Shown: in pieces, positions 473 to 30,718 of the stretch
Layout: every line of letters begins with the position of its first letter
Position numbering within the stretch: the first letter of the stretch is position 1
Assembly: GCA_900128395.1 (NCBI GenBank)
Contig: LT649322.1
Location: 1 to 37,899 of the forward strand
DNA from: Stramenopiles sp. TOSAG23-2
Lineage: Eukaryota; Sar
Direction: 5' to 3'
DNA: 37,899 nt
Notes under the pieces: generated by a model
Databases searched by the model: none
What the model was told of the DNA's origin: nothing
What the model saw: only the letters and a program-made list of their open reading frames with translations
Position numbers and translations under genes: made by a program

Positions 473-1507
473 ATGGCGAATGTTAGATTAATATGTCGTA
501 AAATTGGTATAACTTCTTCACGTGTCATTGAAAAGGCAAGTGAATTATACCGTATTAGCAAAATACGTAGGCCTGTGTTAGGTCGTGCAGAATTTGCAAG
601 GAGTGCACTGTGTGTTGATTGTGCATGCCGAGTATGTGATGAAACACCTCGAGATATAAACCATTTAATTAAATTAGGTGGTATTAATAAAACCATGTAT
701 AATAGTTTATTAGGACAATTTCAAACCTTATTAAATATACGAGTAAAAGCAGCGCATTCCACGCGTAGTTTGGCGATCCAATTTGGCGTGTCAAGCATGG
801 TGCCATTTATTGAAGCAACGTTAGCAACATTTAAAGAGCGTTTCATCAATTCATTAGCAGAGGAAAGGAAAGCGCATGTTAAATTTACTAGTCCAGCATT
901 TAAAGCTGCAGCATTTTTTCTATGTGCACAAAAACGTAAACGTGTATTGGATAAATATAAATTATTAAAATTAACAGCCGTTGATGCACATGAATTTAAA
1001 AGTACATGTAATGTTATGTTGTTACATTGTTTTGATACATTAGGTGTAGGAGAAAAAAAAGATTTAATTGCTATAACTGATCATCGTGAATTAATGGATA
1101 ATTGTAAAGTATCTAATATTAATCAAAGTAGTGAAGTTGAAAAAGAACGTGAATATCAAGAATGGAAAAAAAAAGTTTTAGAAAACCGTCGAGCAGGTAG
1201 TAGTAGTAGTAGTAGTAGCAGTACCAGTAACAAGAATATAATAAAGAAACGCAAGCAATTGTTAGATTCTAATAATAATAACGCAAATGATGAAAATGTT
1301 CCAAACAAAAAAAAAGTAAAACAAACAACATTATTACCTTTACCAGCAATGATGAAAGAAAAAGGAAATGATAAAATTGTTAATGAAAAAACGACGACGT
1401 CGAAGAAGAAAAAGGCAATAACAACAACAGATATTAATGTGAAAAGTAAAACCCAACAACCAACAATTGATGATTTTGTAAATGCTTTATTGCAGCATGG
1501 AAACTAA
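473..1507 (+). CDS. ORC6: Origin recognition complex subunit 6
   Basis: This is a 344-residue homologue of eukaryotic ORC6, the TFIIB-like subunit of the origin recognition complex that helps load MCM helicase in the nucleus. Residues 1-200 follow the family pattern: an N-terminal helical cyclin-like fold with an 'INHLIKLGGINKTMY'-type segment (compare LIKLSGLNKETY in animals), then a second helical repeat. Residues about 226-238 (EYQEWKKKVLENR) match the short C-terminal helix that in animal ORC6 (EYEEWKRKILEN-like) binds ORC3. Here that helix is not terminal. A further roughly 100-residue, Ser/Asn/Lys-rich tail follows and ends with a PIP-box-like Q329-x-x-I-x-x-F-V. The start ATG lies after a nine-A run and gives the natural N-terminus. 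It faces the CmoA-CmoB gene tail to tail. Family assignment is by recalled sequence pattern; the PIP box is inference. Confidence 0.9.
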   Translation: MANVRLICRKIGITSSRVIEKASELYRISKIRRPVLGRAEFARSALCVDCACRVCDETPRDINHLIKLGGINKTMYNSLLGQFQTLLNIRVKAAHSTRSLAIQFGVSSMVPFIEATLATFKERFINSLAEERKAHVKFTSPAFKAAAFFLCAQKRKRVLDKYKLLKLTAVDAHEFKSTCNVMLLHCFDTLGVGEKKDLIAITDHRELMDNCKVSNINQSSEVEKEREYQEWKKKVLENRRAGSSSSSSSSTSNKNIIKKRKQLLDSNNNNANDENVPNKKKVKQTTLLPLPAMMKEKGNDKIVNEKTTTSKKKKAITTTDINVKSKTQQPTIDDFVNALLQHGN

Positions 1508-1644: not shown

Positions 1645-3630
1645 TTACACACTACCACCTCTCCTAGCTTTTAAATAATAACGTAATGGTCTTGAATACC
1701 CTTCAATAGTTTGCATTTGATCCTCACTCAATGCTTCTTTTAAACTACGTACATTAGCCCATTCTGTACGTCTTTGTTCCTCTGTTGATAACGGTTCCGC
1801 GAAAAAAACTTTAATATTTATAAAGCCACTACGAGTTAACCAATGTTTCAATGTCGATATAGTTGGTAAAAAATATACACCTTTCATATTTGCATATTTC
1901 TTTTTTGGGAAAAGTGCAACATCTTCCTCACCTTCAATACCTTGACAATCAACAACAATTTCACCTTTTGATTTTAAACTAGAATTGATTTTACGCAACA
2001 TTCCAACTGGATCTGGTGTATGGTATAATACTCCAAGACAAAACACAACATCAAATGTTTGTGGAAATAGATCCATATGTTCACCTCGTAATAATTCAAA
2101 TTTCAAATTTTTTATTTTCGTAAAATGTTGAAAGACTTGATATTCAAGCCATGCATGTAAATTAGGATCAAGACCAATTAGAAATTCAGGTTTTTCATTT
2201 AACATCCTATATAAAAAATAACCATTGCCGCATCCAACATCACATATTACTTTTCCTTTTAACTTCGGCATGTGTTTTAATATTCGTTCCCATTTCCAAT
2301 CACTTCTCCATTCTGAATCAACGTTCACACCAAAAATATTCCAAGGTCCTTTTCTCCATGGCTTTAAATCTTCTAGCAAATCTTCAACTTGTGCTTTACT
2401 TTTCGTATCAATTGCATTTTCTAAACCAATTTCAATAATACTTTGATTTACAACTAAATGTTTTGTTGATGGTGCAACATTAATTTCCTTTAATTTTTTA
2501 GCAATATTATCATATCCATCCAACGTTTTCGGGTTTAATCTTCCTTTTTGATAAAATACAGTACGTCGAGCATTTATTATTTTCTCATAATTTCGATATG
2601 TACCATTTGATAATGTATTTAAATATCTAGCTTCAGAATCAAAGAATGAATTTAAATTTGGTGTCTTGGCAACACTTCTACTTTGTAATTTTCCACGTTT
2701 ACGTGCAATAATTGATAAGAAACAATTCCATTTAACACATGTTTGTACGAAATCAAATCCAGCTGAATATAAGGAATCAATAATTTGTTGTTCAGTATAT
2801 GGTATTAAAACATTTTCCAATGCATTTTTTTTATTTGCAATGTATTCTTTGGTGTAACCACGTCGATGTTTAAAATCTTCATATACATATACACATGTAT
2901 TTTGTATATCCTTATCCGGGCTACGTACTTTTTCACTAATAAATAATATACCATCTTCATTTAAGTTATCATAAATCTTATGCAATAATTCATCTCTATT
3001 TTCATATTTAACAAATTGCAAGGTATAATTTAATATGCATATGGATGCATTATTAATTGGAATGTTACAAATATCATCTTTGATAATTGTTATATTGTGA
3101 TCTGCTTTACCATATTCCAATTTCTTTTTACATTCATTTATCATAGCGTCTGATTCATCAATTCCAATTAAATTCAATACATGTTCTGAAGCTGGAATTG
3201 CTTGAATTATATAATCAAACGTCGTTCCAGTACTACATCCTAAATCATATATATTAGTATTTGGTTGGTAATATTTTGCTACCATGTATAATAAAAAATC
3301 AATTGTTTCTGAATATAATGGCACAGAACGAGAAACCATATCATCAAACACATCAACTACTTCTTTATTAAATCGAAATGGTTTTGGTCCTTGCTCTGGT
3401 TCATTATATAAATTATCAACTGCTCCAACTAAATTTAATGAATATCGTATATCAGCTGGTGGTGGACCAAGTTTCGCACCAATATCATTGTAATCATTTT
3501 TAACGTTTCTCGTATCATTTGAAAATTGTTTGGAAGAAAATTTTTGATATATATAATACGCTGATGTACTAACAGCTGCACCACATATGATACCCAAATA
3601 GAATGGTTGCGAAGATGAAGATGTATTCAT
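1645..3630 (-). CDS. CmoA-CmoB fusion: carboxy-SAM synthase plus tRNA U34 carboxymethyltransferase
   Basis: This 661-residue protein joins two bacterial tRNA-modification enzymes. Residues ~85-312 match CmoA, which makes carboxy-SAM from SAM and prephenate. Seen: RSVPLYS with Y106 (E. coli Y39), the SAM loop YDLGCS at 128-133, and LNYTLQF with N201 (N132). The position of E. coli R199, which reaches into the neighbouring subunit, appears to be K268 (NKKNALENV). Residues ~325-661 match CmoB, which transfers the carboxymethyl group to 5-hydroxyuridine-34: PWRKGP (K427=K91), EWRSDWKW (W441, K446), CDVGCGNGY, GVLYH (Y536=Y200; L532 replaces M196), EEQRRTEW and the R650=R315 position. Both domains are near full length. 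Residues 1-35 are not bacterial and hold a hydrophobic stretch (YLGIICGAAVSTSAYYIY), suggesting a membrane anchor or organelle signal. The start at 3630 is preferred over an in-frame ATG at 3705, whose first 25 codons look like a T-rich/AT leader. E. coli comparisons are from memory. Confidence 0.9.
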   Translation of the reverse strand: MNTSSSSQPFYLGIICGAAVSTSAYYIYQKFSSKQFSNDTRNVKNDYNDIGAKLGPPPADIRYSLNLVGAVDNLYNEPEQGPKPFRFNKEVVDVFDDMVSRSVPLYSETIDFLLYMVAKYYQPNTNIYDLGCSTGTTFDYIIQAIPASEHVLNLIGIDESDAMINECKKKLEYGKADHNITIIKDDICNIPINNASICILNYTLQFVKYENRDELLHKIYDNLNEDGILFISEKVRSPDKDIQNTCVYVYEDFKHRRGYTKEYIANKKNALENVLIPYTEQQIIDSLYSAGFDFVQTCVKWNCFLSIIARKRGKLQSRSVAKTPNLNSFFDSEARYLNTLSNGTYRNYEKIINARRTVFYQKGRLNPKTLDGYDNIAKKLKEINVAPSTKHLVVNQSIIEIGLENAIDTKSKAQVEDLLEDLKPWRKGPWNIFGVNVDSEWRSDWKWERILKHMPKLKGKVICDVGCGNGYFLYRMLNEKPEFLIGLDPNLHAWLEYQVFQHFTKIKNLKFELLRGEHMDLFPQTFDVVFCLGVLYHTPDPVGMLRKINSSLKSKGEIVVDCQGIEGEEDVALFPKKKYANMKGVYFLPTISTLKHWLTRSGFINIKVFFAEPLSTEEQRRTEWANVRSLKEALSEDQMQTIEGYSRPLRYYLKARRGGSV

Positions 3631-4346
3631 TTTGTTTCTTTTAATATATATATATATTAAAATTATTAAAATGTAGAAAAAAAAAAAAAAAGAAGAGAAG
3701 ACCAAATTGAAAATAATTAAATAAAATTATTGTATCTTCCTTCTAATGCAGTAATCAATTGTTAAACGAACGATAGCTGATGGGAAAATCAACAGGATTG
3801 TGTGTTTTTAAATAGAATTTCTTATTGAACATGAAAACACATACAAGAAACGTGCAAACCGTATGCATATCTAATGTATAGAAATAATAAATAAATAAAT
3901 AATTTTTTTTGTGTTTTTTTTTTTTTTATGGTTTGTAATTTATTCTAATGCTGTGTACCCTGTATATAATATTTTAATAATTTTCTCTTTAATTACTACT
4001 ACTCATTCATTATTTTTGTTGTATCATCATATGTAGTTTATTTAGTGGCATTGCGCAAGTGTAAATACTCGTACGAACTTCGTAGTAGGGAAGAGACTTG
4101 GTCATAAGATATATATGACGTATATATAATGCGTAAATAAAATTATATAGATATATCATATATACTCTTGTATCTTTTTTTTTAACACATAAGAGAATTA
4201 TTTTTAATTTTTATATCTCTTTTCTCTGCTAGTGAAAAAAATCACAGAAAATACGTATGTTAAGGATTTCATATCTCTCTGACTATGATATATATCTGCA
4301 TATTATATATAAATTATATCTCATATCATACGCCGTGTATAAAAAT
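3631..4346. other. Intergenic, upstream of the CmoA-CmoB gene
   Basis: About 700 bp separate two minus-strand genes. The region should hold the promoter and 5' leader of the CmoA-CmoB gene and the 3' end of the next gene. It contains AT-rich sequence, T homopolymers near 3903-3927 and no persuasive ORF or RNA gene. At 3945-3960 an 'atgctgtgtaccc' string loosely resembles the dispersed ATGGAYAYAGCAT motif on the minus strand, but with mismatches. Confidence 0.4.
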
Positions 4347-5399: not shown

Positions 5400-5976
5400 T
5401 CTTTGGCGTCAAAAATATACATACATGTACTATATGGTATATCCTACAATTTATATCATGTTTTCCATCTCTTCTCCTGCAATTGTTTTTCATAATATTA
5501 TTTGTTTTTTTTTGTTATTTTTTAACGTTCTTCATCTTCTGGGGGGGGTAAAAATGATAATTAAGGTATAAAACAACAGGGGAAAATACCTTAGATATTT
5601 GTTGAAAATAAATTTGCATTTTAACATTACACAATGATAAAATAAGAAAGAGGAAACGTTCATTGTATTTCGGAAATTTCATACGTAAAAAATTAGTAAA
5701 AAGGGGTGACATATGGAAAATATGGAAACAGCATGCAGCCTTTTTTTTTTTTAAATTTTGAATCGTCGCTCCTAATTAGGATAATAATTATATTATACAA
5801 ACATAATACTTTATATTTATTAATAACTGTAGTAGTATAGATACATACATACATACATACATACATAGATCTGTAATTGTAAATATATTACTACGTATAT
5901 TGTATTTACAAAATAACTTTCTATATATTATTATTTGTTCGTGACATCAACTTATATTTTTAAAATAAAAAAAAAC
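5400..5976. other. Divergent upstream region shared with BBS7
   Basis: This 577-bp spacer separates two divergently transcribed genes, so it should contain both promoters. It holds an ATAC microsatellite at about 5841-5866, poly-T and poly-G runs (5511-5548), and AT-rich sequence. No RFX/X-box-like palindrome was recognised by eye. Confidence 0.45.
5841..5866. repeat. (ATAC)n microsatellite
   Basis: About six and a half uninterrupted ATAC units are directly visible in the divergent promoter region upstream of BBS7. Confidence 0.95.
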
Positions 5977-8799
5977 ATGGAATTAGCGTTAAAAAGACAG
6001 GATTATTTTCAAGTCAATTCATGTTCCCACCGAGATACAATGGTGATATTGCCAAAGTCAAAAAAAGGCAGGCAGTATATAACAATTGGGGACGATTCTG
6101 GAGAAATAAATACATTCGATATGAAACGTGGTGAGAAAAAGCAGAAATGGAGAAGTATTGTTAACAACGCACCAAAAGAAGAAGGTGGAAGAAAAATTCA
6201 TGGTAATATCAAAAATCAAAATGCAGCAAGTGTTGAGAGTACAGAAATAACAGCTTTGTCCTTATCAGGTGTGGAGGAAGTTAAAATATATGTATCAACC
6301 GAGAATGATGTATATGGAATATCTACAAGCAAAGGCAAAGAGGCCGGTACTAGACATTTTGAATCGAATATGACTGAAGTAATAGAAAATTTAAACGTGC
6401 AACTGGACCAATATTGGACGTCTGGAGAATACGTATTTAGTATGCATGAATATGATAATGATGGTACTAATGAACAACCGTTTAAAGAACGTGTTTTCTA
6501 TTCATGCCAAGATAGAATTAATGATTTTGATATAAAAAAAATAACAGCAAAACCAAATAGTTTAAAGACTGGTATTTTAGGATGTGATGATGGCACCATT
6601 CGTACTGTTGATGGGAAAACAGGAGAATTAGCAGCTGAGGTTAATGTGAAAAAATCAGTCACTAGAATTTATATACCAAAAATGGTATCCAATGGGGTTG
6701 GTATAACTGAAGAAAACTATGTATCTTCCAATGATGTTATCTTCGGAACACGTCGAGGTAATATGGGTGCTATATCTTTCAATGCAGACAATGAAGCAAA
6801 AAAATTATGGGATGTAAAAGGAAAAAGGAAAAGTAATTCTATCAATAGCTCGCCTAAAGGTATACGACAAGCAGCTATTACATGCATTAAAGAGTATGAT
6901 ATGACAGAAGATGGTAGAAACGATTATATTGTAGGTAGGGAAGATGGATCGATCCAAGTTTATGTAAAACGTGATGAAGATTCAAAACCATTTGAAAACT
7001 TTCGTTCATCCGTACAAGAAACGATACAAACACTCGCTGCTGGGTTTATATCAAGCCCGGAAAATAAAGAAATAATTATAAATACGTTTTCCGGTCGTGT
7101 CATGTCCTTTAAAAATGAAAGAGATTTAATGGAAAAGGTTGTGAATAAAAAAGGCTACACTTCGACGGTTGGTGCTAAGGCAAAAGAAGAAACTTTACAG
7201 GGTTTAGATACAGAGTTGAAAGAATTGAGAAAAGAAGTACAAAAAGAGACGAAAAATTTAAGAAAACAAATGGGGACGGAGAAAAACAAAGATAGTAACG
7301 CATATAGTATTATAAGGTCATTAGATATGAAATTTAAAGTCAAAGTAGTATTCGATTTGTTACAAGATGATGCAGCATATAAATTAGGCATTGAATGTTC
7401 AACTCCGATTGAACAAATTATATTAAAAAGTGATATACCAGTTGACATTATGGATATGGACGACACGGAAACAATAGTATCCATAACAAATACAAATTCA
7501 CAACAGCGTGGTCCGCAACCCATACTAGCGACTTTTAGAAATGATCAGATGGAAGAAACTGGATTTATCAATGGCATGGGCCAAGATAACAATGGCGAGA
7601 CGGAAAGTAAAACTAAAAAAAGTAAATCGAAATCAAAAAAATCTGAAGAAATCACATATCTTAGGAAAAAAAATCCAATTACCTCAAAGCGAATGGAATT
7701 AAAAGTACGTACAGTGGAGGGACAAGCTGGCGCAATTACGTTATATGTAATACCAGCAAATAACGAAAATTTCCAAGACGAAGGGGATGAAATTAAATTT
7801 GGCCAAACTGCGCATAGTGTCACTATTGGTGTGATGCCTTTATCACTTCATTGTAGAACGGAACGGCCAAAAATACCAATAGAAAAAATGCCATTAAATA
7901 TTTTAGAACTGCAAGGGTACAGTTCAATAAACCAAGTGCATGAGTGGTTACGTAACATACTGCCAAATTTTCCGCGTCGAGCTATGGATCAGCAAAATCA
8001 GGCTTATTTCTATGAAAATAGTCTTGTGGGATCATTGCTTGCTATAGAATATCTGGATAACAAAGTTTTATTGTCATCCGATTCAATATCGACAATATCG
8101 ATATTGAAAGAGACCATTAATAGACTTGCAATGCGTGTAAATGTTCGGATTAGCTTATCTATCCGTATCAATGAAATGTCAGTTGTCCGCTTCTTAGCTT
8201 TGGTTGAGCCAAAGCTACAAGCTCAGTTAGGCTTGGCAACAAAAATAAAATGGTTAGATGGCTTAGCAGAGGTTACAGGTGGTGGAAACCCGTCATATTT
8301 ATCAACTGAATTACGTAATACATTAAACAATGCAAAACAAATTAAATATGACTTTAAAAGAAGTGCAAAATTTATACAATTTTGGTATGGTGTAATTACC
8401 GATTTGTACATCGATTTAAATCGTTGCCGTGGTGTAAATGCTTCTCATAACATCCCAAATTTGATGAATGCTTTGGAAAATTTTAACATGGACAATATCT
8501 TAAACTTTTTTGGAGTTAAACGTGGAGATATAGATAAACATTTCGAACAGGCTGAAAAAGATAAAATGGAAATGAAATTAATGGAGAAAAAGCGCCGAAA
8601 GGAGCGCAAGAAGAAGAAGAAGAAAGAGAAAGAGAAAAAGTTACAGAATCGAAATAATAATGATGAAAAAAGTATGAGTGGTGGAGGTGACCAACAATTC
8701 GGTGAAAAGGGAAATAATGATAAAGGTGTTGAAGAAGAAGAAGATATTTCAAAAAGAAATGAAGATACTAATAATACAAATGGTAAAAAGAAGAAGTGA
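5977..8799 (+). CDS. BBS7: BBSome subunit BBS7
   Basis: This 940-residue protein is the BBS7 subunit of the BBSome, the coat-like complex that moves membrane proteins in and out of cilia. The N-terminus MELALKRQDYFQV aligns with the animal BBS7 start (MDLILNRMDYLQV-like). IGDDSGEI, the later VGREDGSIQVY and similar blades form a seven-bladed beta-propeller over residues ~1-380. A coiled coil follows at ~403-438 (KELRKEVQKETKNLRKQ), then the GAE/platform region including LKVRTVEGQAGAITLYV and DSISTISILKE, and a helical end (YGVITDLYIDLNRCRG ... FF at ~850). Differences from the ~715-residue animal protein are a charged insert at ~537-565 (KTKKSKSKSKK) and a ~90-residue Lys-rich tail. The ATG at 5977 is chosen because upstream in-frame codons run into the A-rich leader. 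It converges on the kinesin-like gene. Confidence 0.93.
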   Translation: MELALKRQDYFQVNSCSHRDTMVILPKSKKGRQYITIGDDSGEINTFDMKRGEKKQKWRSIVNNAPKEEGGRKIHGNIKNQNAASVESTEITALSLSGVEEVKIYVSTENDVYGISTSKGKEAGTRHFESNMTEVIENLNVQLDQYWTSGEYVFSMHEYDNDGTNEQPFKERVFYSCQDRINDFDIKKITAKPNSLKTGILGCDDGTIRTVDGKTGELAAEVNVKKSVTRIYIPKMVSNGVGITEENYVSSNDVIFGTRRGNMGAISFNADNEAKKLWDVKGKRKSNSINSSPKGIRQAAITCIKEYDMTEDGRNDYIVGREDGSIQVYVKRDEDSKPFENFRSSVQETIQTLAAGFISSPENKEIIINTFSGRVMSFKNERDLMEKVVNKKGYTSTVGAKAKEETLQGLDTELKELRKEVQKETKNLRKQMGTEKNKDSNAYSIIRSLDMKFKVKVVFDLLQDDAAYKLGIECSTPIEQIILKSDIPVDIMDMDDTETIVSITNTNSQQRGPQPILATFRNDQMEETGFINGMGQDNNGETESKTKKSKSKSKKSEEITYLRKKNPITSKRMELKVRTVEGQAGAITLYVIPANNENFQDEGDEIKFGQTAHSVTIGVMPLSLHCRTERPKIPIEKMPLNILELQGYSSINQVHEWLRNILPNFPRRAMDQQNQAYFYENSLVGSLLAIEYLDNKVLLSSDSISTISILKETINRLAMRVNVRISLSIRINEMSVVRFLALVEPKLQAQLGLATKIKWLDGLAEVTGGGNPSYLSTELRNTLNNAKQIKYDFKRSAKFIQFWYGVITDLYIDLNRCRGVNASHNIPNLMNALENFNMDNILNFFGVKRGDIDKHFEQAEKDKMEMKLMEKKRRKERKKKKKKEKEKKLQNRNNNDEKSMSGGGDQQFGEKGNNDKGVEEEEDISKRNEDTNNTNGKKKK

Positions 8800-8967: not shown

Positions 8968-11900
8968 TTAACGATTGGTCTTATTATGTTTTAACAACTT
9001 CGTACATTCCTCCAAAGCCAATTTCAATGCTTTTTGAGATCTCTCAAACGATACTCTCAGTTTACGTTTATGATGCTCAGATGTTTCTAACTTTAATTCC
9101 ATTGAATTTAGATCATCAAATAAATTTTGTGATTTCTTCTTCTCGTTTATCAAATTTTTATTCAAGCTTCCAATCTCTTCTTTTAAACGAGCAATTTCTA
9201 AGGATTGTCTTTCTAGCTTTAATTTCTTTTTCATCTCTTCTAACTCCTCGTCGTCCTCATCGTTTTCGTCTAAAGCCAAATTGCTAATATTGTTTAATGA
9301 TACATTTGCTTTTGATTGTTGCTTCAAGCGTTTTTTTCGTTTATTAGTCTTAGATGAATTTCCACTAGCACCCACAGATATTGTAGATACATTTAAATTG
9401 TTCATAGTTTCCATCGCACCAGCAATTTTATTACGAACTAAATCCTCATCTTCTTGTATAGAGCTTAATCGCTTCTTTAAATGCGTTACTTCATTCCTCG
9501 AATTACGCAATTCTCGCTTGAAATTTTCCATTTCAATGGACAATGCCTCCTTCTGCTCAATTAACCTCATATTCATTTCCATGTGTTCGTTTATTGTATT
9601 TGTTGCATTATCCAACAATTTCTTATTTGTGCTCATAGCACCGTCCATTTTACTTTTCAGCAACTCCATTTGATCAAATAAATGTCTTTTATCACTCTCC
9701 ATATTTTGCATTTCAGAATCTTTTTCAATGATTTTCTTCTCCAATTGCAATATACGATCGTCTTTCTCCTTCATATTATTTTCAAACATATGGCCTTTCG
9801 TTTGTATTTGTTCATGATAGGTTTTTGACGCAAAATCACTTTGTTCCCTGGCATTTTTCTCCCGTTTTAATGCAGCGTCAATATTAACAACTTTTGCATT
9901 CAATTCTTCCTGCATTTGATGTGCATTAGCAAGTCGTCGCATGAGGCTTTCCCGTTCCGTATGAAGCTCCGTGATTTCATTGCTATGATTAACTTTCAAT
10001 GTCGAAATATCTTCAATCAACGTGCTTTTTTCCTCTGTAAACTTTGCATTTGTTGTTGCCATTTTTTTCTGCAGATCTTCAACACTATCAACAAGATTTC
10101 TATTGTGTTCTTGTGTGGAACTTAATTCATCGGAAATAATCTGCATTTTCTTTCGTGCTTGAATTAAATTGTTTGACAATTCGTTTGTTTTAGATTGTAA
10201 CCTACTAATTTCTGCTGCGTGTGAAGCTTGTAAATGATTCATCGAGTCCGACATCATTTGTCTCATTTGCGATGATCCAATTTCATTTGATTTCATTTTT
10301 GTTTCTAATGATAAACTTCGCTCCGATGCTAAGCGTAGACCATCTCTTGCCTTTGCAAGTGCAATCCTTAGCTTTTCCAATTCACCATCTTTCATAGATA
10401 TCAAGCTTGAATCGCGTTGATGTTTCATATTCAAACTTTCTTCCATATCTTTATACGCAGCAATACTTGCTTGGGCAGCCTTACGCTCATTTGCTAATAA
10501 TTCTTTTTCATTTTTTAATGCAAATTGTAACTTTTCATTTTTCTCATCGCTTATATTTTTCTCGTTACCGACATGCTGCAGTTTTTCTTTCATATTTTCC
10601 ATTTCTACTGTAATGACCTTATTGTTAATTTTGAATTCATCAGCTTCACTAATTTGTTTTTGTAAATCATTAGACAATTGCTCTATATTTAACTCCATTT
10701 TAGCAATTTTGCTTTCATATGTTTCAACGACTGATTGATTCAACATAGTTACATCACCACTTGTATTATTCTGATTATTCAATTGCGCACTAAGTTGTAT
10801 AATCTGTTCGTCTTTTACTCTAGACTCATGTTCTAGCGTTGCTCTTAAACGTTCCATTTGCAGTGTATGGTTATTTAGATGTTGTACTTGGCTCCGTAAC
10901 GTAGCATTTTCAGCCCACAAGCGCCTTGACGTATCATCTAATTCGCGATATTTTTCCATCACCATCTCAATTCTAGTAGTATATTCTGTAATTGTGTTTT
11001 GCAGTACTATGTTTTGTCTTGACATTTCCGCTTTTGTTTGGCGGTATTTATATTTTAGCTCGTCAATATTCAATACATTAAGATTAATTTCATCCTCGCC
11101 ATCAATATTATTCCCCATGGTGGTAGTAATGTTTGTTTGACGCAACACATTTTTATGGTAATGTGACATGATTGGCTGGCGTTGTGGTATACGAACAACG
11201 TTAAATGATTTGCTATTGTACTTTTGTGGTGTTGATGAAGATGGGGGTATAGAGGCAGCGGTTTCCCGCATTTGTTGTGATATTTCTTTTTCACGTGATG
11301 GAGAGGATTGTTTTTTAACGCTTTTCTTACTATTTGTTTGTCCATTTGCACGTATTGTTGTTGATGATTTTGTAAAGCCAAGTTTCAAACCCATTATCTG
11401 TGCATTTAATTTTTCAGCCAGCTTCAAGCCTTCATCATCTTGAACATCCATAGTCGTATTATTGTTATTATTCACTTGTTGTTGTTTTTCTTCTTCTCGT
11501 CTATTTTCATCATTTTCCTCATCTATGTTGTTTTTACTGCTTAAAATTGTGTTACCTTTATTGCCATTTGGGACGACAACGACACAAGTTGTATCCTCTG
11601 TAATTAATTCTTTTTCTCCTTCAACCTGGGTATTGGCAATTATTATTGAAGTAGTATTTTTATCAATATCACTACCATTGTTCTTTTCATCCGCTGTTGG
11701 ACTTGGTAATGATCCTATAGAATCTTCCAAATTGTCCATTATACCCCCGCCTGTAATAATTTTACTTAATTGCATTGGGGTGTTTAATTTGATCTTACCT
11801 TCTAAACCATCCAGCTGCAGTATCGGTTTCATCAATGTAACAGGTTTCACATCGTTTTTAGTATTCGTGCTAATATTACCAGGAAATTCGATACTATCGT

Positions 11901-13341
11901 CATTACCTAAATTTCTAACGACTAAATTATCGTTGTTGTTGTTAATGCTATTGTTGTTTTTGTTGCTGTTGTCATTCGTTGTTGTCGGTGAATCAATTGA
12001 AATATCCATTAAATCGGCAGCAGTATCAACATTTGTAGTATCGTTTTTACTATTTACGACAGGGCTCCATAATAAATTTCGATCGTTTTTCTCACCATTA
12101 CCTATGAGACTTATTCTTTCCATACCATTCGGGGTACTTTGTAACACTCTAGATGAAAATTTTAATGTTGGTAATACTTGCTCTGAGCTATGTTTCGAAC
12201 GTTGACTAACTTGTCCAATGAATATATTGGTATGCTTCTCTGTAAAAGAGGATTTCAACACGTATGTAAGTTTCGTATCACGACATGCTAGTAGACTGTC
12301 ATTTTTCTCTTGTAAATCTTTTGTACATCTTAAAAAGCTTGATAATGTTAATTGTACATTTTCTGCACCTGGATCATTATTAGTTGCTGCTGAAGATGAT
12401 AAATCTGCAAAATTGATGAAGCGAATGTATGATGTGGAACATTTCCAATTTTTATTAGATGATAATGATTTAGCTGGAGTTGTTCCCCCAAGTGCATTTA
12501 ACTTTGGTGTTTTTGATTTACTGTTTGCCATGATACCAGGTGACGTAGGATCTATACGAGTCCATTTTTCTAATTTAACTTTTACAATCATATGTTGCTC
12601 ATTTGTTGTATTATTATTTTTATTTTTCTTACCATGTTTTTTTTTATGTTTCTTTCGATGATGTATAACTCGTTTTATAACTTTGATAGCTTGATCAACA
12701 TCATCGACATATTTTTCACATAAATCAGGTATTAAAATATCATCATTTCCATCACTTTCCTCTGTTCGTAAATTTTTATTGCTTGTATGTATTAAATCGT
12801 TGATTTTATCTTTTATTATACCACATATTGATATTGATATTTTATATTTTACAAGTGGGCTTTTCTTTTTCATTCGTATTTTTCCGAAATAACTTGTAAT
12901 TGTGCGTGGTATGATACCTAGACCAACTTGCAATTCATCCCCGTGTGTTTTTCCCAGTAATGTATGCTTCCGGCCACTACCTTTTGCACCTAATATATAA
13001 ATGGAAACGTTTTCAGATTGATGAAATGTTTTATTAATATATTCATCTAAGTAAGAATATAAATCAATTTGATTTGTACCAGGGCCAAAGACAGTATCAT
13101 ATGAAAATTTATATTGCTCATCTAAAGTTTCTACATATTTAACAACACCAGCATTGTCATAATTTGTAAAGCTAAGTTGTTGTTTCACTTGGTCATCAGC
13201 TTTGTCATTATTATTATTATTATTATTGTTGTTCTTCCTCTTTGTCTTTTTCTTTTTAACAGGACTATTATTTAAATTATTGGAAGGAACCATACGAACC
13301 AATACACGCCATTCATTATTATTTGTTGTGTTTTTGTCCAT
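8968..13341 (-). CDS. Divergent kinesin-like coiled-coil protein with degenerate motor
   Basis: This 1457-residue protein has a recognisable but decayed kinesin motor at residues ~10-400. YKFSYDTVFGPGTNQ matches the YxFDxVFxxxxxQ segment. The P-loop position reads GAKGSGRKHT (118-127) instead of GQTGSGKTxT, so the catalytic Lys and Thr are replaced by Arg and Lys. The switch I SSRSH motif is not found; switch II reads FINFADLSSS (~306-315) rather than VDLAGSE. CRDTKLTYVLKSSF (~350) and TLKFSSRV keep the L12/alpha4 and alpha6 patterns. Residues ~420-750 are Asn/Ser/Asp-rich and disordered. Residues ~755-1450 form long heptad-rich coiled coil interrupted by a KTNKRKKRLK basic patch. ATP-driven motility is therefore doubtful, and a scaffold role is inferred. 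The subfamily cannot be assigned. The ATG at 13341 follows an A-rich leader and is preferred over one 16 codons upstream. It is divergent from the CEP350-like gene. Confidence 0.8.
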   Translation of the reverse strand: MDKNTTNNNEWRVLVRMVPSNNLNNSPVKKKKTKRKNNNNNNNNNDKADDQVKQQLSFTNYDNAGVVKYVETLDEQYKFSYDTVFGPGTNQIDLYSYLDEYINKTFHQSENVSIYILGAKGSGRKHTLLGKTHGDELQVGLGIIPRTITSYFGKIRMKKKSPLVKYKISISICGIIKDKINDLIHTSNKNLRTEESDGNDDILIPDLCEKYVDDVDQAIKVIKRVIHHRKKHKKKHGKKNKNNNTTNEQHMIVKVKLEKWTRIDPTSPGIMANSKSKTPKLNALGGTTPAKSLSSNKNWKCSTSYIRFINFADLSSSAATNNDPGAENVQLTLSSFLRCTKDLQEKNDSLLACRDTKLTYVLKSSFTEKHTNIFIGQVSQRSKHSSEQVLPTLKFSSRVLQSTPNGMERISLIGNGEKNDRNLLWSPVVNSKNDTTNVDTAADLMDISIDSPTTTNDNSNKNNNSINNNNDNLVVRNLGNDDSIEFPGNISTNTKNDVKPVTLMKPILQLDGLEGKIKLNTPMQLSKIITGGGIMDNLEDSIGSLPSPTADEKNNGSDIDKNTTSIIIANTQVEGEKELITEDTTCVVVVPNGNKGNTILSSKNNIDEENDENRREEEKQQQVNNNNNTTMDVQDDEGLKLAEKLNAQIMGLKLGFTKSSTTIRANGQTNSKKSVKKQSSPSREKEISQQMRETAASIPPSSSTPQKYNSKSFNVVRIPQRQPIMSHYHKNVLRQTNITTTMGNNIDGEDEINLNVLNIDELKYKYRQTKAEMSRQNIVLQNTITEYTTRIEMVMEKYRELDDTSRRLWAENATLRSQVQHLNNHTLQMERLRATLEHESRVKDEQIIQLSAQLNNQNNTSGDVTMLNQSVVETYESKIAKMELNIEQLSNDLQKQISEADEFKINNKVITVEMENMKEKLQHVGNEKNISDEKNEKLQFALKNEKELLANERKAAQASIAAYKDMEESLNMKHQRDSSLISMKDGELEKLRIALAKARDGLRLASERSLSLETKMKSNEIGSSQMRQMMSDSMNHLQASHAAEISRLQSKTNELSNNLIQARKKMQIISDELSSTQEHNRNLVDSVEDLQKKMATTNAKFTEEKSTLIEDISTLKVNHSNEITELHTERESLMRRLANAHQMQEELNAKVVNIDAALKREKNAREQSDFASKTYHEQIQTKGHMFENNMKEKDDRILQLEKKIIEKDSEMQNMESDKRHLFDQMELLKSKMDGAMSTNKKLLDNATNTINEHMEMNMRLIEQKEALSIEMENFKRELRNSRNEVTHLKKRLSSIQEDEDLVRNKIAGAMETMNNLNVSTISVGASGNSSKTNKRKKRLKQQSKANVSLNNISNLALDENDEDDEELEEMKKKLKLERQSLEIARLKEEIGSLNKNLINEKKKSQNLFDDLNSMELKLETSEHHKRKLRVSFERSQKALKLALEECTKLLKHNKTNR

Positions 13342-14387
13342 TTTTTTTTTTTTTAATATATGTAATTCACCAAACAAACAAACAAACAAAATTCCAGTGT
13401 CTTTTATTCAATATATAATATGATATTATCTCACACGCAATACTTCTATACTTTCTTTTTCGGTTTACCTTAGCACATGTATATATATGAATAGATTATG
13501 TATATATATACGTCTACTTTGTATGCTTTTTTCCATTGAATCACACGTACTCTCTTCAGCAATAAATAATATTTCTATAGTTGCTTTTGGAAATCCAGGA
13601 AAATATATAAGTTTATGTTAACGGCCGGATTGCCAGGATTGATTGTCGAATTATTACCTTAAATTGGGAACTTTTTTAACCGAACACGAACAAATGCTAA
13701 ATTATTATATTTCGTATTTTAATTGTATATTAATTAGTAAGTAAAGTGATGATGGATGGACTAATTTTGGTCATTTTTGGTGAAGATGAAAGTTGGATGA
13801 AAATTTAGGTCGGCGCACATGTCAGAGTTAACCCTCCCGAATAACCTTAATGCGAATCCAAACATCAACTCTCACTTAAACTGTTATTTTTATTATTACA
13901 TTTGGAATGGTGGATTGTGCAATTTAAATTTCAAATAATTATTATTATTTATTTCGAAAAAATTATTATCAATAAATAAAATAGAATTATACGAGGTAAA
14001 TAGCATTGTAAATCAGTGGTAAATTTTCATTCTTCCAAAATTTTAATTATTTAATTTTAATTTAAAAAAAACTACTCCAAGTGTTGATGAAAACCAATGG
14101 GAACAGCAGATACGAATGGCAAGAGAAAGATCATAACAGAAAACTTTATTTTTTGCTTCATTTCATATATATTGTAATAGACGATATTTAAACGTTATAT
14201 ATATATAGAGAGAGAGAGAGAGAAATTTTGCTTCATTTCATATATATTGTAATAGACGATATTTAAACGTTATATATATATATAGAGAGAGAGAGAGAGA
14301 AAGAAAGAAAAGTGACGTGATAGAAGTTAGAAATAGAAGAGTGAGGGGGAAAAAAATATCATAATTATTATCAAAATTAGGTAAAAC
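13342..14387. other. Divergent upstream region, kinesin-like / CEP350-like
   Basis: About 1 kb lies between two divergent genes. The right end carries a 75-bp tandem duplication and GA tracts next to the CEP350-like start. The middle (about 13610-13890) is somewhat less AT-rich than its flanks and contains no long ORF in either strand. No RNA gene was recognised. It probably holds two promoters and 5' leaders. Confidence 0.4.
14151..14301. repeat. 75-bp direct tandem duplication with GA tracts
   Basis: The segment beginning ttttgcttcatttcatatat at 14151 is repeated at 14226. The two copies are nearly identical, each ending in a TA stretch followed by a GA tract; the TA stretch differs by one dinucleotide. 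The second copy ends about 85 bp before the CEP350-like ATG. Confidence 0.95.
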
Positions 14388-17300
14388 ATGGCAGATAAAG
14401 TTGTTGTACCAAGAAGACCGCCAAATCCTATTGTAACAGGAAAACGTAGTATTCATATGACACGTGCACCACTTATATATACAAAAGGCACTGGTAGTCA
14501 ACGTGTGCCTGTGTTTGCAAGAGTTATTCCATCCATGCCAAAAGCACCGTCCGTGGAGACAAAAATACCGTTACCGCCATCCTCCACTACGGATCAACAA
14601 CAACAACCTATGACACCAACAAAGCGACAAAATATATCGCCAAATACCAATAACGATGGTGATGATACATATAACAATGATACCTTTAACAGAACACCGC
14701 CTGAATCACCAATAGATCCTAAAGTTGTAGGCTTAATGATAGAACAACGCAGAAAAGATTATGCGGAACGACTAAGGGAAAGACATAAACGTATATACGT
14801 CAAACCACAACATAATATATTGAAAATAGATTCAACAAATACTAGTAGGAAAAAAAATAATAATAATAATAGGAAACGTACACAAAAAGTTAAAGTAGTG
14901 AGGGATAAATGGGAAGGTCGACCAGAAGAAAAAGCTGCTATATTAACAAACAATGCAATTAAACGTAGCGAAGATGCTATGAGAAAGTTGAAAGAAGACC
15001 GTTTAATGGAACAAAGAAAAAAAGAAAGTGCAACTGCAAGGCGGTTACGTGTGAACGAAATGGGACGTTTAATACGGCAACAAAATAAAATAAGAATGCA
15101 AGAAGAGATGATGCGAGCAGCAACAGCAGCAGATGATGATGATAGGTTTGATTATGAAAATGAAAATTTTGATAATATATCTAATATGGGACAGGCAAAT
15201 ATAGATAAACAAAATGCGGTACACATTTTACGGAATGACAAAACTGGGGAACAGGAAATTTTAAAAACAGTTATAAGCGATAATATTCTTGGAACGAATA
15301 TGGAAGAAAATCAATTTAATAACATGGTAAAACGGAGTACGATACATCGTCCGCCTCAAACAAAAAGCAGAAAGTTAGTGATGAAAAATGCAGTGCCTCC
15401 ACGACCTAGGAAACCACGAGTACCGCGTTTAAGTGGTAATAGAAGTGTTGGAAATAATGCGAAAAAGAATAAACGAAATAGAGGATACGAGAGTCAAGTT
15501 AAAAAGAAGCGTAAACCACCTGTACCACGATTAAGTGGTAAAAGTAAAAGTAATACTCGAAATAACAATGGTGGTAATAATCACAATAACAACAACAATC
15601 GCAATAGTAATAAAACAAAAACAAGTAAAAATGGATTTAAAATAGCATCTTCCTCAAAAGTTAATTCTGCCACGAATCCGGTTAATAAGGATAACGATGA
15701 TGATGTAAATATAACTAAAGAGAATGAAAAAAATAGAATTCAAGAATTTATAAAAGAAAAAAGAAAACGTCGACGTCAGGAGAAAAAAAATGAAACTTTA
15801 AAAGAAGCAAAGGAGGATCTATTGAGAAGAAAACGTTTGAGACAATTAGATGAAAAATTTAAAAAACGTCGTGAAACCATTAAAAGACGAATAGCGGAGG
15901 AAGCAAGAGAAAAAAGCAAACGGAAAAAGGCAAGGAGAAAAATGATGAAGAGATTAAGAAAGGAAAAAAAACGGTCAAAAAAAACTACTATTGACGATTT
16001 ACCAAACCGTGCCAATTTAATTAGTGGTGATATATACAGCAATGCTGAATATGTCAATGACAATTTAGTGGACCAATTTGAATGGCAAGCAGTTGAAACG
16101 AATGGTGATGAGTATTACAATGATACCGATGATATGGGGTATGATAGACAATTAAGTCCAAGTCCAGTAAGCATGATGAATGATATTACGCCATCTAATA
16201 GCAGGCCTACAAGTAGTCTTGCACAGCCTTACTCTCAAAATAATATGAATATGGATCAAGGTGGTGAATATGGGAATGGAGAGGACGATGCTGATTTTCT
16301 AAATCGAGAAGCGTTGCTCAATGGAGTAGGTATAGTTTCAGATAGCAATGCCGTGAAACAACAGCAAGCGCCATCTTCGTTGCAAAAACAAAGTGATTCA
16401 GGAGATTTAAATATAAACTCAGATTATAGAAAATTAGTCGAGCAAAGTGCCGGTGGCCAACATGTTACTGATGAGCAGCAACAGGTTGATAATAGCAGTA
16501 GCGATCCACAAGAACGAGAAATTATTCTGAATCGAATGAATGCATTAAAAAGAGCAACTGAGCAATTATCTGCACGTATATCTGTATTATCGTCTCAAAA
16601 AGGAACGTCGGGGGATACGGGGGATATGGATGCAACGATCGTAAAACAAATGGCCATCCCAGCGGATTTGCAGGCGGAAGAGGCAATCGAAAGGGACAAC
16701 ATGCGAAGGGCTAAAGATACGTTAAAAAGTAACCAGCGGGTCGAAACTGAATCGGCGCGACACATTCATCGTTTAGTGAAAGAAGTTGCAAATGCTGAAC
16801 TGCCAGAGTATTTGGATGATGAAGATGCCAATAAATCGAAGGGTAATGTTAAAAAAAATGTTGAAAGAAATAATAAAAAAGTCCAAGTTGTTGAGGAATT
16901 CAATATCCAAAAGGATGATCTCAAGAAAAATAATAATAAGTATGAGGAAGAGGAAGATGATGAAGATTATGAGGATGAATTTGATTCAGATGGCTACGAT
17001 GATGACGAGGATGATGGAGAGAAACCTGGTGTAACATCATTATCGACCTCAGTCAGGCTAAATAATGATACATCTGTTAATGTACAGAACGATATTAGTA
17101 ATCGAGCAAAGAGTGTTGGAAAAGCAACAGGTTCTTCCCCAACGATAAAAGAAGTGCAGACATTGCAACAACAAGATTCACAATTTAACAATGTCTTAAA
17201 AGATGCTCATGACTTATTTCAGAAGCATTCGAAACTTGTCGATGAGAGTTATCCTGAGCAGAAATTGAAAATATCGTCTACTTATGATGCAGATGATATT

Positions 17301-20300
17301 AATACTATTCCAACCACAACTAACCCAACAGTTAACCTCAAGTTAGCTGCTGAAGCTGCTGCTGCTGTTGCTGCTGCTACGCGTGCCTCAAGAGAAGCTC
17401 TTGATAGAGCACGGGAACTAGAAGCCGATTCCAAAATTGGTATATTGTCTGTTAAAATTAATGGTACTAGGCGTGAGAATAATTTCGGTGGAAGCAATAA
17501 TGATGTCGTTCAAAACCCAGTTATCATAGAAAATGATTTCAAAATGTCACCAAGGGCGTATGATATAGTCGACTCATATAGTATATTAGACATATATGCA
17601 CAAGATGCAGTCCAACACGAACATTATCAAAAAGCTATGGTAATACGAGATGAAAAATTGAAGAAACAAGAGGAGGAAAAGGCGACAGAAATGGAAGAAG
17701 AGCAGAAGCAAGCGACGGTAGCGATCCAAACAGGTACATATTGGGACACGATGCTAATGAAGGATAGTTCACACAATGTGACTGAAGAGCGAGGTGTTGG
17801 TGGAAAAGGAGTTGTAGAAATCGATCCTAAAAATGAGCAACAAATACGAGAAAATTTACCATCTCCACATTTTCTAAATAATGATACTACAGATACAAAT
17901 AACGATATTAGTGTGGAAGATGTGCCGATGGTTCCTTACTCGCCCCCTCGAAGTTTACCAATGGAAACCGAGAAAATTAAACGTTTATCCCCCGGGTCAT
18001 TATCTCGAAAATTGCTTGCTGAGGTAGATCTATTACAAGAACTAACGGAGTCGGAAAAGCAATTAGATGCCATTGTACATGCAAACGAGTTACAAATGGC
18101 ACAAAAAGAAACAATTGAACTAGCTAATCAATGGAATGCGCAACAAGAAGAAGCAGCACAATTAGCAGAACGAGTTGCCGCAGAGCAGGCTCATGCTGCG
18201 GAAATGCAAATGCAGGCAAGTCAAATTACGTTGACCCTACAAGCTGCACACGAGGAGCAACTCCTTTCAATGAATGCGCACTTAGAAATGATACGCAAGG
18301 AAAACGAGGCTGCAAAGATTAGGGAAACTGGGGCTCAAACTACTCAAGTTGTTACTTTAAACCAAGGTACCGATCCAGAGCAAAGAAGTGCAAATAATCA
18401 AAGCATAGCGCTTAGCACTGGAGGTTTGATTTTTGATGCACGGTCGCCAAATGCTGATAGGACCGTAGATGATTTAATTGAAAACACGCAAGAATATTCT
18501 GCTGACTTTGAAATTGGAGACGATAGTACATTGCAAAGTTCGAAAAAGTCTATAAGAAAAAAAAGGAGCAGTAATGATGATAGCGAAATCCCTGATGAAA
18601 TTGATGAAAGCTTGTCTGCGCAACAGGAAACACAAAATCAAACGCAAATGGAAAGCATTGCGGAGGAGGATTTTGTGAACCATGAGGCATCCATGCAAAG
18701 TATCGTGGAAGATTATGTAGAAGATTTTGAATCTGTAAAATCTGAAGAAATATTAATTGATGACAGTATTAAAGAAGAAAATAGTGCTATTGGCCGGCTT
18801 GACGGTAGCAATAGAAGTATAGTAGAAGAGACAGATTTGGAAAGAAGTACCAAGCGTTTGATTAAGAAAATTCAAAAAGATATGGAAACTCGTCATAGAC
18901 ATGAGAACGAACTTTTAGATGTTCGCGAAGCAGCAATCAAAGAACGCACGAAAGAACGAATGAATTTATTAGAAGAAGGACAGCAAGTTCATTTGCAACA
19001 ATTATCAGTAGAGGAGATTGCTAATGAACGAGATAGAATAACATATACCTTTAAAAAGAATATCGCGGAGGTGCAACGACAACGAGCCTCGTTGCAAGTG
19101 CGCCATTATCGGGAGATTTTGAAGTTGCGATCTCGCCAAAAGATTTTGGATAAATTGTCATCAACGGAGAATGATGAGTACTCAAGTGACATGGAGTCTG
19201 ATATTGTTACAACAGATGATGATGGCGGCGGACGATCTAAATCACCGCAATCAATCGCTGAGGATAAAGATTTAATCATAGAAGAGCCTCAATCCGTTAT
19301 TGGAAAGGATAAAAACTTTTCCCGTGCTGAATCTTTTGTATTAGAAGTAAGGGAAGTTGATCATGTGGAAGATGAAGTGGTGGAAGTAGCGGACGAATTT
19401 GAACTGAATGTTCAGGAAGAAAGTGTCCAAGAAGACTTGAAATTCACTGATAACGAATCCTCTCGCGCATTAAAACGTAGTTTATCTCGTACATCGGAAG
19501 CTTCAGTCGATTACGTTGATGATTTTGAAGACGACTTTGAGGATGATGGTTTAGTAGATGATTCAATTCGAATGCAAGCAATTTCACAAGAATTAAAATC
19601 TTTGCAACGAAGGGTATCCTCAGGCGAGACACAGGAGTCCTCTACTGATTCGGAGGAGGCTCAAAGCCTAAAAAAGCGCGAGGCAGAATTGAAAAAGAGA
19701 CGAGAAAAGGCTGAAAAATTATTAAGAGAAAAACAGAAAATCGTTGAACGTGCTCGAAGACGCGAAGTATTGGAAGCGGAGGAGAAAAAAGTAAACGATT
19801 TATTGGAACGAGCATTAAAGTATGACGTGGAAGAGGAAATTAAAAAATTAAAGTCAGCAGATGAGCAAAATAAGACACAGATGCACCGTACTAGTAAATT
19901 GTCACCGGTGCAACAGCAATTATTGCAGAATCAAAAAATGCAGCGGGAGTTGAAGGAAGAACAAAATAATGACAAATCAGTCATATCAAATATTCCTTCG
20001 GAGGATGAAGATGTTGTGGATGAAGTAATAACCGTGCATGAAACAAGCACGTCTAGAATGGAAGATTCTTATGGCGATGATACTTTTGAAGATTCCAATC
20101 GTAGCATTACGAAGAAAATAATGTCATCCCCAACACCAGTAAAGAAGAAAGAAAATGAGGAGATCAGCGAAAGTCCCACTAATAATAAAAAGGCTAATAC
20201 TAAAACAACATTTACAATTGAAGATGACGAGGAGGAATCTATTTCAATCGAAAGCGACATTGTTATTGAAGATGATGATGTTGAAGATAATGTTGATATT

Positions 20301-29449: not shown

Positions 29450-30718
29450 TTATTTTGATAAAAATGCTATTGCATCTGGTTGATCATATTCGGTTGCAAC
29501 ATCTTTTGATGTTTGTCCTTTTTTGTTTTTAATAGAAGCATCTGATCCACCTTCAACTAATAATTTAATCACATTGACGTGTCCAAATTTACATGCATCA
29601 TGCAAAGCAGTATCACCATCAACATCTTGATCATTTATTGAAACTTTTAAATCATTTAATAAATATTTCACAACATGATCGTGGCCCCAAAATGCAGCTT
29701 TCATCAATCCAGTACGTCCACTGTTGACTTCCAATGCTAATGGATCTGCACCAGCTTTTAATGCTGTAATTGCGTGTTCTAAACTACCATGCATGCAATG
29801 TTCACGGAAAGTGGCACTTGGGGTAGGCTCTTTATTGCCTTCATCAGCATCATTCTCCTCTGGTGGAATACATTGCTCCGGGCATCCATTGGATAATAAT
29901 TTTGCATATGCTTTTGCAAAATGATTAAAAAATAATTTTTCATCATTTGCATATTTTTCAACCCATGGTTTAAATTTGTCATCTTGCATCAATGCATAAT
30001 CAGTTGGCAACATCATGTATTTTCCAGATTCATCTGCATATTGCACTGGACCATCCCATTCCCTTGGTTTCCATTTCATGTAAAATAAATTTTTAAAATA
30101 TGAATTATCAAATTTTAATGGATCTTGTGTCCATGGTCCATCGAAACCACTACGTGTTTTATGGCACCTTCCCATGGTATGAGCACCACTTAAAGCAACT
30201 ATTTCTTGGTCATTAAAACCTTGGCGATAAAATACGTCGCGTAAATGTTGTGCACCTTGCGCTGCGTCTGGTAAGCGGCCATCTGGTGGGCAATACGTCC
30301 CATTTGGCTTATCAACACGACCCATACGAACATCGATTTCTGGCCCACCGGAAAATTCCACACTAAACTTTCCACCTAAAGCCCATATATCTGCATGACT
30401 AACTTCAGGATGTTTTGCTTTTACTGCTTTTAATAAATCACGTGAAATATTTAAACCTGCATTTGCATCATGATTTTTCTCTGGTTCAAATCGCATCGTA
30501 GCACCATTTGATCCACCAGTACCATCGCTTTTATCAAATGTACCAGCTGCATGCCATGCCGTGCGTATTGCCATTGGACAAGCATTTGCTTTCCCATTAA
30601 TAATAGCTTGTCGTACATCACTTTTTAACGAGTTGACGTAAAACGTACTTGAAAAATCTACTGGGCATGTACGTTGTTTTTTTGCTGGTGGTTGTTCATT
30701 ATTTGTTACAGAGCTCAT
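29450..30718 (-). CDS. Class I haem peroxidase (ascorbate type) fused to ankyrin repeats
   Basis: Residues ~15-280 of this 422-residue protein form a class I haem peroxidase that reduces H2O2. Distal residues R52, W55 and H56 sit in IRTAWH; the proximal His is H180 in LSGAHTMGRCH; the proximal Trp is W196 in GPWTQDP, with D240 in LPTDYALM completing the His-Asp-Trp set. R189 (TRSGFDG) is the equivalent of ascorbate peroxidase R172, which binds ascorbate at the haem edge; yeast cytochrome c peroxidase lacks it. This favours ascorbate, or a dual APX-CcP activity. No transit peptide is seen; PAKKQR at 11-16 could be a nuclear signal. Residues ~300-422 hold three to four ankyrin repeats (SGRTGLMKAAFWGHDHVV, DGDTALHDACKFGHVNVI), suggesting a protein partner. 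The fusion is in one uninterrupted frame. Confidence 0.93.
   Translation of the reverse strand: MSSVTNNEQPPAKKQRTCPVDFSSTFYVNSLKSDVRQAIINGKANACPMAIRTAWHAAGTFDKSDGTGGSNGATMRFEPEKNHDANAGLNISRDLLKAVKAKHPEVSHADIWALGGKFSVEFSGGPEIDVRMGRVDKPNGTYCPPDGRLPDAAQGAQHLRDVFYRQGFNDQEIVALSGAHTMGRCHKTRSGFDGPWTQDPLKFDNSYFKNLFYMKWKPREWDGPVQYADESGKYMMLPTDYALMQDDKFKPWVEKYANDEKLFFNHFAKAYAKLLSNGCPEQCIPPEENDADEGNKEPTPSATFREHCMHGSLEHAITALKAGADPLALEVNSGRTGLMKAAFWGHDHVVKYLLNDLKVSINDQDVDGDTALHDACKFGHVNVIKLLVEGGSDASIKNKKGQTSKDVATEYDQPDAIAFLSK

Follow-up and report, generated by a model that had tools for sequence, protein, structure and literature searches.

A eukaryotic CmoA-CmoB fusion family with a plausible role in tRNA wobble-uridine modification

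The genome of Stramenopiles sp. TOSAG23-2 encodes, in a single open reading frame, a carboxy-SAM synthase domain (CmoA) followed by a tRNA ho5U34 carboxymethyltransferase domain (CmoB), and this fusion belongs to a family of common ancestry that extends to other eukaryotes. The protein is apparently a eukaryotic, fused and membrane-anchored variant of an enzyme pair known from bacteria, and a role for it in the formation of cmo5U34 is plausible. The gene lies on contig LT649322.1, whose positions 1–37,899 were analyzed as a whole (hereinafter the window; contig C89 of a 17.45-Mb assembly of 793 contigs), and its product has a single match in the assembly. The features of the window that bear on it are:

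1645–3630, minus strand: CmoA-CmoB fusion gene, a single open reading frame of 661 codons plus stop
2698–3417, minus strand: CmoA half (carboxy-SAM synthase), residues 72–311, from NCBIfam and fold matches
1660–2532, minus strand: CmoB half (tRNA ho5U34 carboxymethyltransferase), residues 367–657, from NCBIfam and fold matches
2350–2352, minus strand: codon for Lys427, equivalent to CmoB Lys91, the residue by which E. coli CmoB prefers carboxy-SAM to SAM
2827–2829, minus strand: codon for Lys268, which stands where E. coli CmoA has Arg199
3547–3603, minus strand: N-terminal hydrophobic segment, a predicted membrane anchor, residues 10–28 (Kyte-Doolittle mean 1.26)
3631–3690, minus strand: A/T-rich leader preceding the ATG
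473–1507, plus strand: neighboring gene for ORC6, a eukaryotic origin recognition complex subunit
5935–8799, plus strand: neighboring gene for BBS7, a BBSome subunit
8968–13389, minus strand: neighboring gene for a kinesin motor protein

The fusion gene and its genomic setting

The frame at 1645–3630 on the minus strand runs from an ATG to a TAA without an internal stop and codes for 661 residues. Its CmoA half passes the NCBIfam equivalog cut-off for TIGR00740 (208 bits; cut-off 193.3) and scores under that of PRK15451.1 (156.4; cut-off 285), while its CmoB half passes both TIGR00452 (320.9; cut-off 275) and PRK15068.1 (327.7; cut-off 209). All 23 members of an alignment of the family match the same four CmoA and CmoB models at 1e-20, and the profile scores rule out a chance origin of the similarity. 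An AlphaFold2 model built from this number of aligned sequences (mean pLDDT 85.5, pTM 0.65) recovered CmoB structures from E. coli and Vibrio, together with a Pseudomonas homologue, as the first 13 Foldseek matches (target TM 0.82–0.89; 288–347 aligned columns, i.e., most of the length of CmoB), followed at ranks 14–19 by E. coli CmoA and the homologous YecO of Haemophilus (target TM 0.91–0.93 for 4gek and 4iwn). The observation from which this work started, CmoA and then CmoB in one frame, is confirmed by these cut-offs and by the match of the model to both crystal structures. The family models leave the first ~31–35 CmoB positions unmatched; these are the positions of the dimer helices described for E. 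coli CmoB (PMC4482062).

The gene is at home in a eukaryotic genome, as the first-pass annotation had proposed: it sits among the genes for ORC6, BBS7 and the kinesin, is preceded by the A/T-rich leader, and its codon use correlates with that of eight neighbors at 0.82–0.97, against 0.76–0.95 for the neighbors among themselves. The six matches to the neighboring BBS7 include one from the oomycete Aphanomyces invadans, at 27%. Bacterial contamination or an assembly chimaera would fit the bacterial nature of the nearest relatives outside the family; nevertheless, given the neighbor-like codon use, the eukaryotic genes on both sides and a 99% identical near copy (P0002) that comes from ENA data, we consider this explanation very improbable.

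Other frames of the window show architectures of their own: one (29450–30718, minus strand) combines a haem peroxidase domain (PF00141) with ankyrin repeats, another (34237–37356, minus strand) a sodium/hydrogen exchanger with a weakly matching TrkA_N nucleotide-binding domain, and a third (14388–22184, plus strand) codes for 2598 residues with no Pfam match at 1e-3.

The fusion family and its bacterial relatives

A homologue search restricted to proteins 0.55–1.75 times the length of the query retrieved 74 matches at 1e-10 among 5685 candidates, of which a profile check found 60 to carry both halves in one frame (61 of 75 once the query is counted); the remaining 14 have one half only or, in P0059, CmoA with a short piece of CmoB. 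One of the 60 is a separate bacterial fusion (P0058), leaving 59 of eukaryotic type. The fusion is thus a family and not a peculiarity of one protist, and the protein database search proposed beforehand did return eukaryotic-type homologues. A further profile search added, among 120 of its 475 matches, 58 new entries, all of 315–359 residues and none a full fusion. Of the 74 length-restricted matches, P0066–P0074 have CmoA-like domains within longer multidomain proteins, such as one from Reichenbachiella (P0066) that also carries a DNA cytosine methyltransferase domain.

Only a few members carry a source label. P0013 comes from the diatom Chaetoceros tenuissimus, where it lies on a 2.4-Mb contig; P0007, P0021 and P0026 are MMETSP transcripts; and the EukProt entry P0025 bears the prefix Pgem, which we take to stand for the ichthyosporean Pirum gemmata. 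For most other members, which come from public assemblies, the label 'eukaryotic' rests on kinship, the anchor and the intron site described below. For one C. tenuissimus genome the sequenced culture is described as axenic (PMC8613185), and we assume that P0013 derives from that genome; the database name of the diatom protein, 'tRNA (mo5U34)-methyltransferase', is probably an automatic label.

In 25 of the 59 eukaryotic-type matches (25 of the 61 fused frames when the query and P0058 are included) the protein runs off the family sequence at one common place: what follows ...SM[K/G/R]xx is Val and then Ser or Arg. As V-[SR] is the translation of GT(A/G)AG, the run-off reads like a single conserved GT-AG splice donor, predicted here from protein sequence. 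P0057 and P0061–P0063 end near a second place and P0025 and P0054 elsewhere, while the gene in the window continues through both run-off places. This donor-like run-off in 25 members and the long diatom contig speak further against contamination.

The source of the two halves was sought in a scan of prokaryote genomes, the figures from which refer to the best 80 of 581 loci. None of the 80 is fused; both genes are present in the fetched stretch at 63, and at 50 of these 63 they are adjacent in the order cmoA-cmoB. In 21 of the 50 adjacent pairs, under a match ranking that favors this arrangement, the two genes are in the same frame, some with a single stop between them (L015, L024 and others), so that fusion would be a small step.

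Separate trees of each half, suggested in advance by the first-pass annotation, place the eukaryotes in one group in both (CmoA: SH-aLRT 94, with 24 of 88 rows eukaryotic; CmoB: SH-aLRT 100, with 22 of 73). In a concatenated tree of 43 chosen rows (17 eukaryotic, 25 bacterial loci and P0058) the 17 eukaryotic fusions form a clade with support 100/100, and they are joined at 100/99 by cyanobacterial-type pairs, these being Arthrospira L036, Lyngbya L057, L038, L040 and L035, with L024 and L039 associated more loosely. L036, L057 and L038 are from cyanobacteria, L040 is from Anaerolineae, and L035 and L024 are from Myxococcota; L024 falls outside the eukaryote-sister group in the tree of CmoA only. 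Sampling within the eukaryotes is patchy, and spread among them may have been vertical or lateral. Among the best 80 loci, then, the nearest bacterial relatives are cyanobacterial-type pairs and not the gammaproteobacterial pair that had served as the initial reference. Unlike the fusion, they are encoded as two open reading frames, in the same order and with the second start within about 0.6 kb of the end of the first.

The bacterial fusion P0058 (563 residues, from a metagenome) resembles the eukaryotic proteins in having both halves in one frame, but it lacks the hydrophobic N-terminus, has Arg at the place of CmoA Arg199 and groups with gammaproteobacterial-type sequences. Its placement points to an independent event, so that CmoA-CmoB fusions arose at least twice.

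Three other sources were considered. A gammaproteobacterial origin is unsupported by the CmoA, CmoB and concatenated trees. An origin from the cyanobacterial plastid is likewise unsupported, since the eukaryotes fall beside, not inside, the cyanobacterial-type pairs and matches are rare in the phylum: only 7 of 292 genomes of Arthrospira's phylum, Arthrospira included, have a match at 1e-20, and only two have a eukaryote-like pair. A viral carrier is also unsupported, as 30 viral loci, retrieved with patterns built on the CmoA half alone, hold CmoA without CmoB in the fetched stretch, and none of 82 phage records with a match covers 80% of the query. One record labelled Salmonella phage (OR851014.1, 3445 bases) matches CmoA and CmoB at 37% and is probably host DNA.

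Active-site residues and the N-terminal segment

Bacterial CmoA and CmoB share with the fusion their two folds, the operon order and most cofactor contacts; the fusion differs from them in being one polypeptide, in its anchor-like N-terminal segment, in a Lys for Arg199 and in its eukaryotic host. The first-pass annotation had listed carboxy-SAM contacts as kept. By alignment to solved structures the residues it named do map correctly: Y106 and N201 correspond to Tyr39 and Asn132 of E. coli CmoA (numbering of PMC3663124), and K427, W441, K446, Y536 and R650 to CmoB residues 91, 105, 110, 200 and 315 (Trp105 is counted as a cofactor contact on the authority of that annotation). Two places in the CmoA half, however, have changed, Arg199 to Lys268 and Asn90 to Glu159.

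Arg199 of CmoA makes a salt bridge to the carboxylate of carboxy-SAM (PMC3663124, section 3.3). Its place is taken by Lys in all 55 eukaryotic rows. Nine of the 64 bacterial rows have Lys there as well, among them all seven of the cyanobacterial-type sister group; Arg is thus not universal, and the Lys of the sister group makes it likely that the substitution predates the fusion. The place of Asn90 is Asn in 48, Thr in one and Glu in six of the 55 eukaryotic CmoA halves, Glu being limited to P0001–P0006, the clade of the window's protein. Of the seven SAM contacts of CmoA considered besides Arg199, this protein retains six (Y106, D129, S133, D158, D186 and N201) and has changed Asn90, and the equivalents of Tyr39, Asp62, Gly64, Ser66, Asp89 and Asn132 are all present in it. 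Across the eukaryotic rows the places of Asp62, Gly64, Ser66, Asp89 and Asn132 are kept, as is that of Tyr39 in 54 of 55 (with one gap). Asp occupies the Asp117 place (D186 in the window's protein) in 46 of the 55 eukaryotic rows and in 57 of the 64 bacterial ones.

In the CmoB half, the equivalents of Lys91, Trp105, Lys110 and Tyr200 show no variation in any of the 56 eukaryotic or 81 bacterial rows. The place of Arg315 has Arg in 30, His in one and a gap in 25 of the 56 eukaryotic rows, and, in a separate 58-row alignment, Arg in 30, a gap in 25, His in two and Ser in one. The carboxymethyl-recognition residues Lys91, Tyr200 and Arg315 are all present in the window's protein, as is Lys110 (K427, Y536, R650 and K446). 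In E. coli CmoB the K91A substitution abolishes cmo5U synthesis, while Y200A and R315A are described as retaining it (PMC4482062).

The N-terminus ahead of the CmoA half, initially noted as non-bacterial, is better described as a predicted membrane anchor. In the window's protein it was modelled by AlphaFold2 as a helix over residues 8–37; the hydrophobic segment itself is preceded by a stretch of net charge 0 and followed by 15 residues that carry a net charge of +2. We surveyed 57 family rows (P0001–P0057, 54 of them with an N-terminus) for 19 residues that include no K, R, D or E and have a Kyte-Doolittle mean of at least 1.2. Such a segment occurs in 49 of the 54 (median start at residue 12, median hydrophobicity 1.78) and beats 95% of shuffles in 47 of the 49; P0008 and P0031 are equally hydrophobic with one Lys inside, P0044, P0052 and P0054 are without the segment. 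Over the 49 rows the net charge averages +0.24 ahead of the segment (where at most 15 residues were counted) and +1.80 in the 15 residues that follow it; the second value is higher than the first in 36 rows, equal in six and lower in seven. By the positive-inside rule, the side with the more positive flank faces the cytosol, and this charge bias would place the catalytic halves on the cytosolic side. Signal anchors of the outer mitochondrial membrane are moderately hydrophobic with basic residues behind them; the membrane in question is most likely this one or the ER.

Alternatively, the N-terminus might be an import signal or inner-membrane anchor, with the fusion acting on organellar tRNAs in mitochondria or plastids. 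A hydrophobic stretch close to the start, bacterial donors in the tree, and the longer N-termini ahead of the segment in P0011, P0016 and P0035 would suit this, and organelles use few tRNAs with U34. A mitochondrial presequence, however, differs from the mostly uncharged stretch found here, the basic residues on average come after the segment, and a chloroplast review states that mass spectrometry of Chlamydomonas revealed no xo5U derivatives (PMC8877259). We consider organellar action unlikely, though it is the foremost of the rivals to a cytosol-facing enzyme.

Pathway context and proposed function

If the fusion carboxymethylates U34, its substrate would be 5-hydroxyuridine, and we searched the assembly for the enzymes that could supply it. 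PF17773, the family of the TrhO N-terminus, is matched twice (L002 and L003), each time with the rhodanese loop CTGGxRC (at residue 195 in L002); L002 passes the NCBIfam TrhO equivalog cut-off (211.2; cut-off 170), and L003 falls just under it (156.7). No match to the TrhP family PF01136 was found in the assembly (8 of 14 control genomes were positive). Sakai et al., 2019 note that trhO homologues occur widely in eukaryotes and take this to suggest that an xo5U-type modification is present there (PMC6599085), and a review gives the human homologue TSTD2 no known function (PMC10135228). As TrhO homologues are reported from many eukaryotes, their presence here lends weak support to the pathway.

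CmoA depends on prephenate in bacteria. Prephenate dehydratase, chorismate synthase and EPSP synthase gave no match in the assembly (each positive in 14 of 14 control genomes), nor did the light-harvesting family PF00504 (positive in 1 of 14). The organism looks like a heterotroph without the shikimate pathway, and with these three families not found the assembly shows no source of prephenate. The assembly nevertheless appears incomplete, which makes the absence weak evidence. It yielded few tRNA genes: ARAGORN read at least 11, two of them tRNA-Sec, and with the Rfam model RF00005, for which 63 of 786 candidates were scored, there were 11 matches, nine of them read by ARAGORN (Thr, Ile, Val, Ala and Pro with A34; Arg-UCG, Arg-CCU, Phe and Ser-GCU). 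A TPsiC-box pattern hit 55 sites against 45 in the control, mostly by chance, and 30 of its loci returned only two tRNAs, both known before. The two tRNA-Sec genes, found in 20 further stretches read by ARAGORN, are in tandem with anticodon TCA (L161, 114–200 and 293–379, minus strand), and selenocysteine may be used in this organism.

These absences raise the prospect that, in the lineage of the window, the CmoA half is idle for want of prephenate and the CmoB half makes mo5U from SAM, or that prephenate comes from prey or symbionts. E. coli CmoB has a SAM-dependent mo5U side activity (PMC4482062), and the Glu at the place of Asn90 is confined to this clade, in keeping with such a loss; the six conserved CmoA places kept in the window's protein, the invariance of the carboxy-SAM selector Lys91 and the state of the assembly argue the other way, and we judge this reading marginally less probable than organellar action. 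The fusion might instead make carboxy-SAM for a target other than U34, in another RNA, DNA or protein. Phages have repurposed CmoA in this manner, their CmoX also using CmoA-made carboxy-SAM in DNA cytosine carboxymethylation (PMC12783734), and TrhO homologues alone are no proof of ho5U in eukaryotes. CmoX, however, is a homologue of DNA C5-methyltransferases, whereas the transferase half of the fusion is CmoB, aligned over most of the CmoB structures; we think a different target improbable, and more so than the two preceding readings.

U34 probably has a eukaryotic modifier already. An Elp3 homologue is present as three pieces on contig C549 that jointly span model positions 80–522 (scores 143.7, 129.9 and 66.7, each under the cut-off of 350), and the usual eukaryotic U34 modification probably coexists with any cmo5U. 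For Arabidopsis, Populus, yeast and calf liver a survey table records no cmo5U (PMC2956550), and a literature search over titles and the beginnings of abstracts, with preprints and most subscription-journal papers outside its scope, returned nothing on CmoA, CmoB or a cmo5U pathway in eukaryotes.

The explanation that we moderately favor is a membrane-tethered, cytosol-facing bifunctional enzyme that makes cmo5U34 on tRNA and descends from a bacterial gene pair. A TrhO homologue would generate 5-hydroxyuridine at tRNA position 34, the CmoA half would convert SAM to carboxy-SAM, and the CmoB half would transfer the carboxymethyl group onto 5-hydroxyuridine 34 to give cmo5U34, with the N-terminal signal anchor tying the enzyme to the membrane and both catalytic halves in the cytosol. 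The substrates would be nucleus-encoded tRNAs with U34 for four-codon boxes, and the fusion may channel carboxy-SAM from one half to the other. The source would be a bacterial cmoA-cmoB pair like those of present-day filamentous cyanobacteria, fused once en route to the eukaryotic family and carried by the diatom and other microbial eukaryotes. A fuller version, in which TrhO and the anchored fusion form a pathway on cytosolic tRNAs beside Elongator after a single bacterial acquisition, with some heterotrophs using prephenate from prey or symbionts or another carboxyl donor, is one that we advance tentatively, at somewhat less than even chances. The first-pass annotation had read the gene as part of a possible cmo5U wobble pathway in a protist; the real fusion, its eukaryotic setting, the CmoB contacts and the TrhO homologue sustain that interpretation. 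It needs amending as to the nearest relatives and the N-terminus, and the Lys at CmoA Arg199 and the shikimate families not found weigh against it.

The conserved eukaryotic fusion is a candidate for the missing second step after TrhO in eukaryotes, and Chaetoceros tenuissimus is a cultured organism that carries it and is open to direct test. If the proposal is true, it would bring a new wobble chemistry, tied to the shikimate pathway, into eukaryotic decoding and provide a natural fusion for carboxy-SAM chemistry. With the fusion present in the diatom and in numerous uncultured relatives, a tRNA modification that is considered bacterial may occur in eukaryotes as well.
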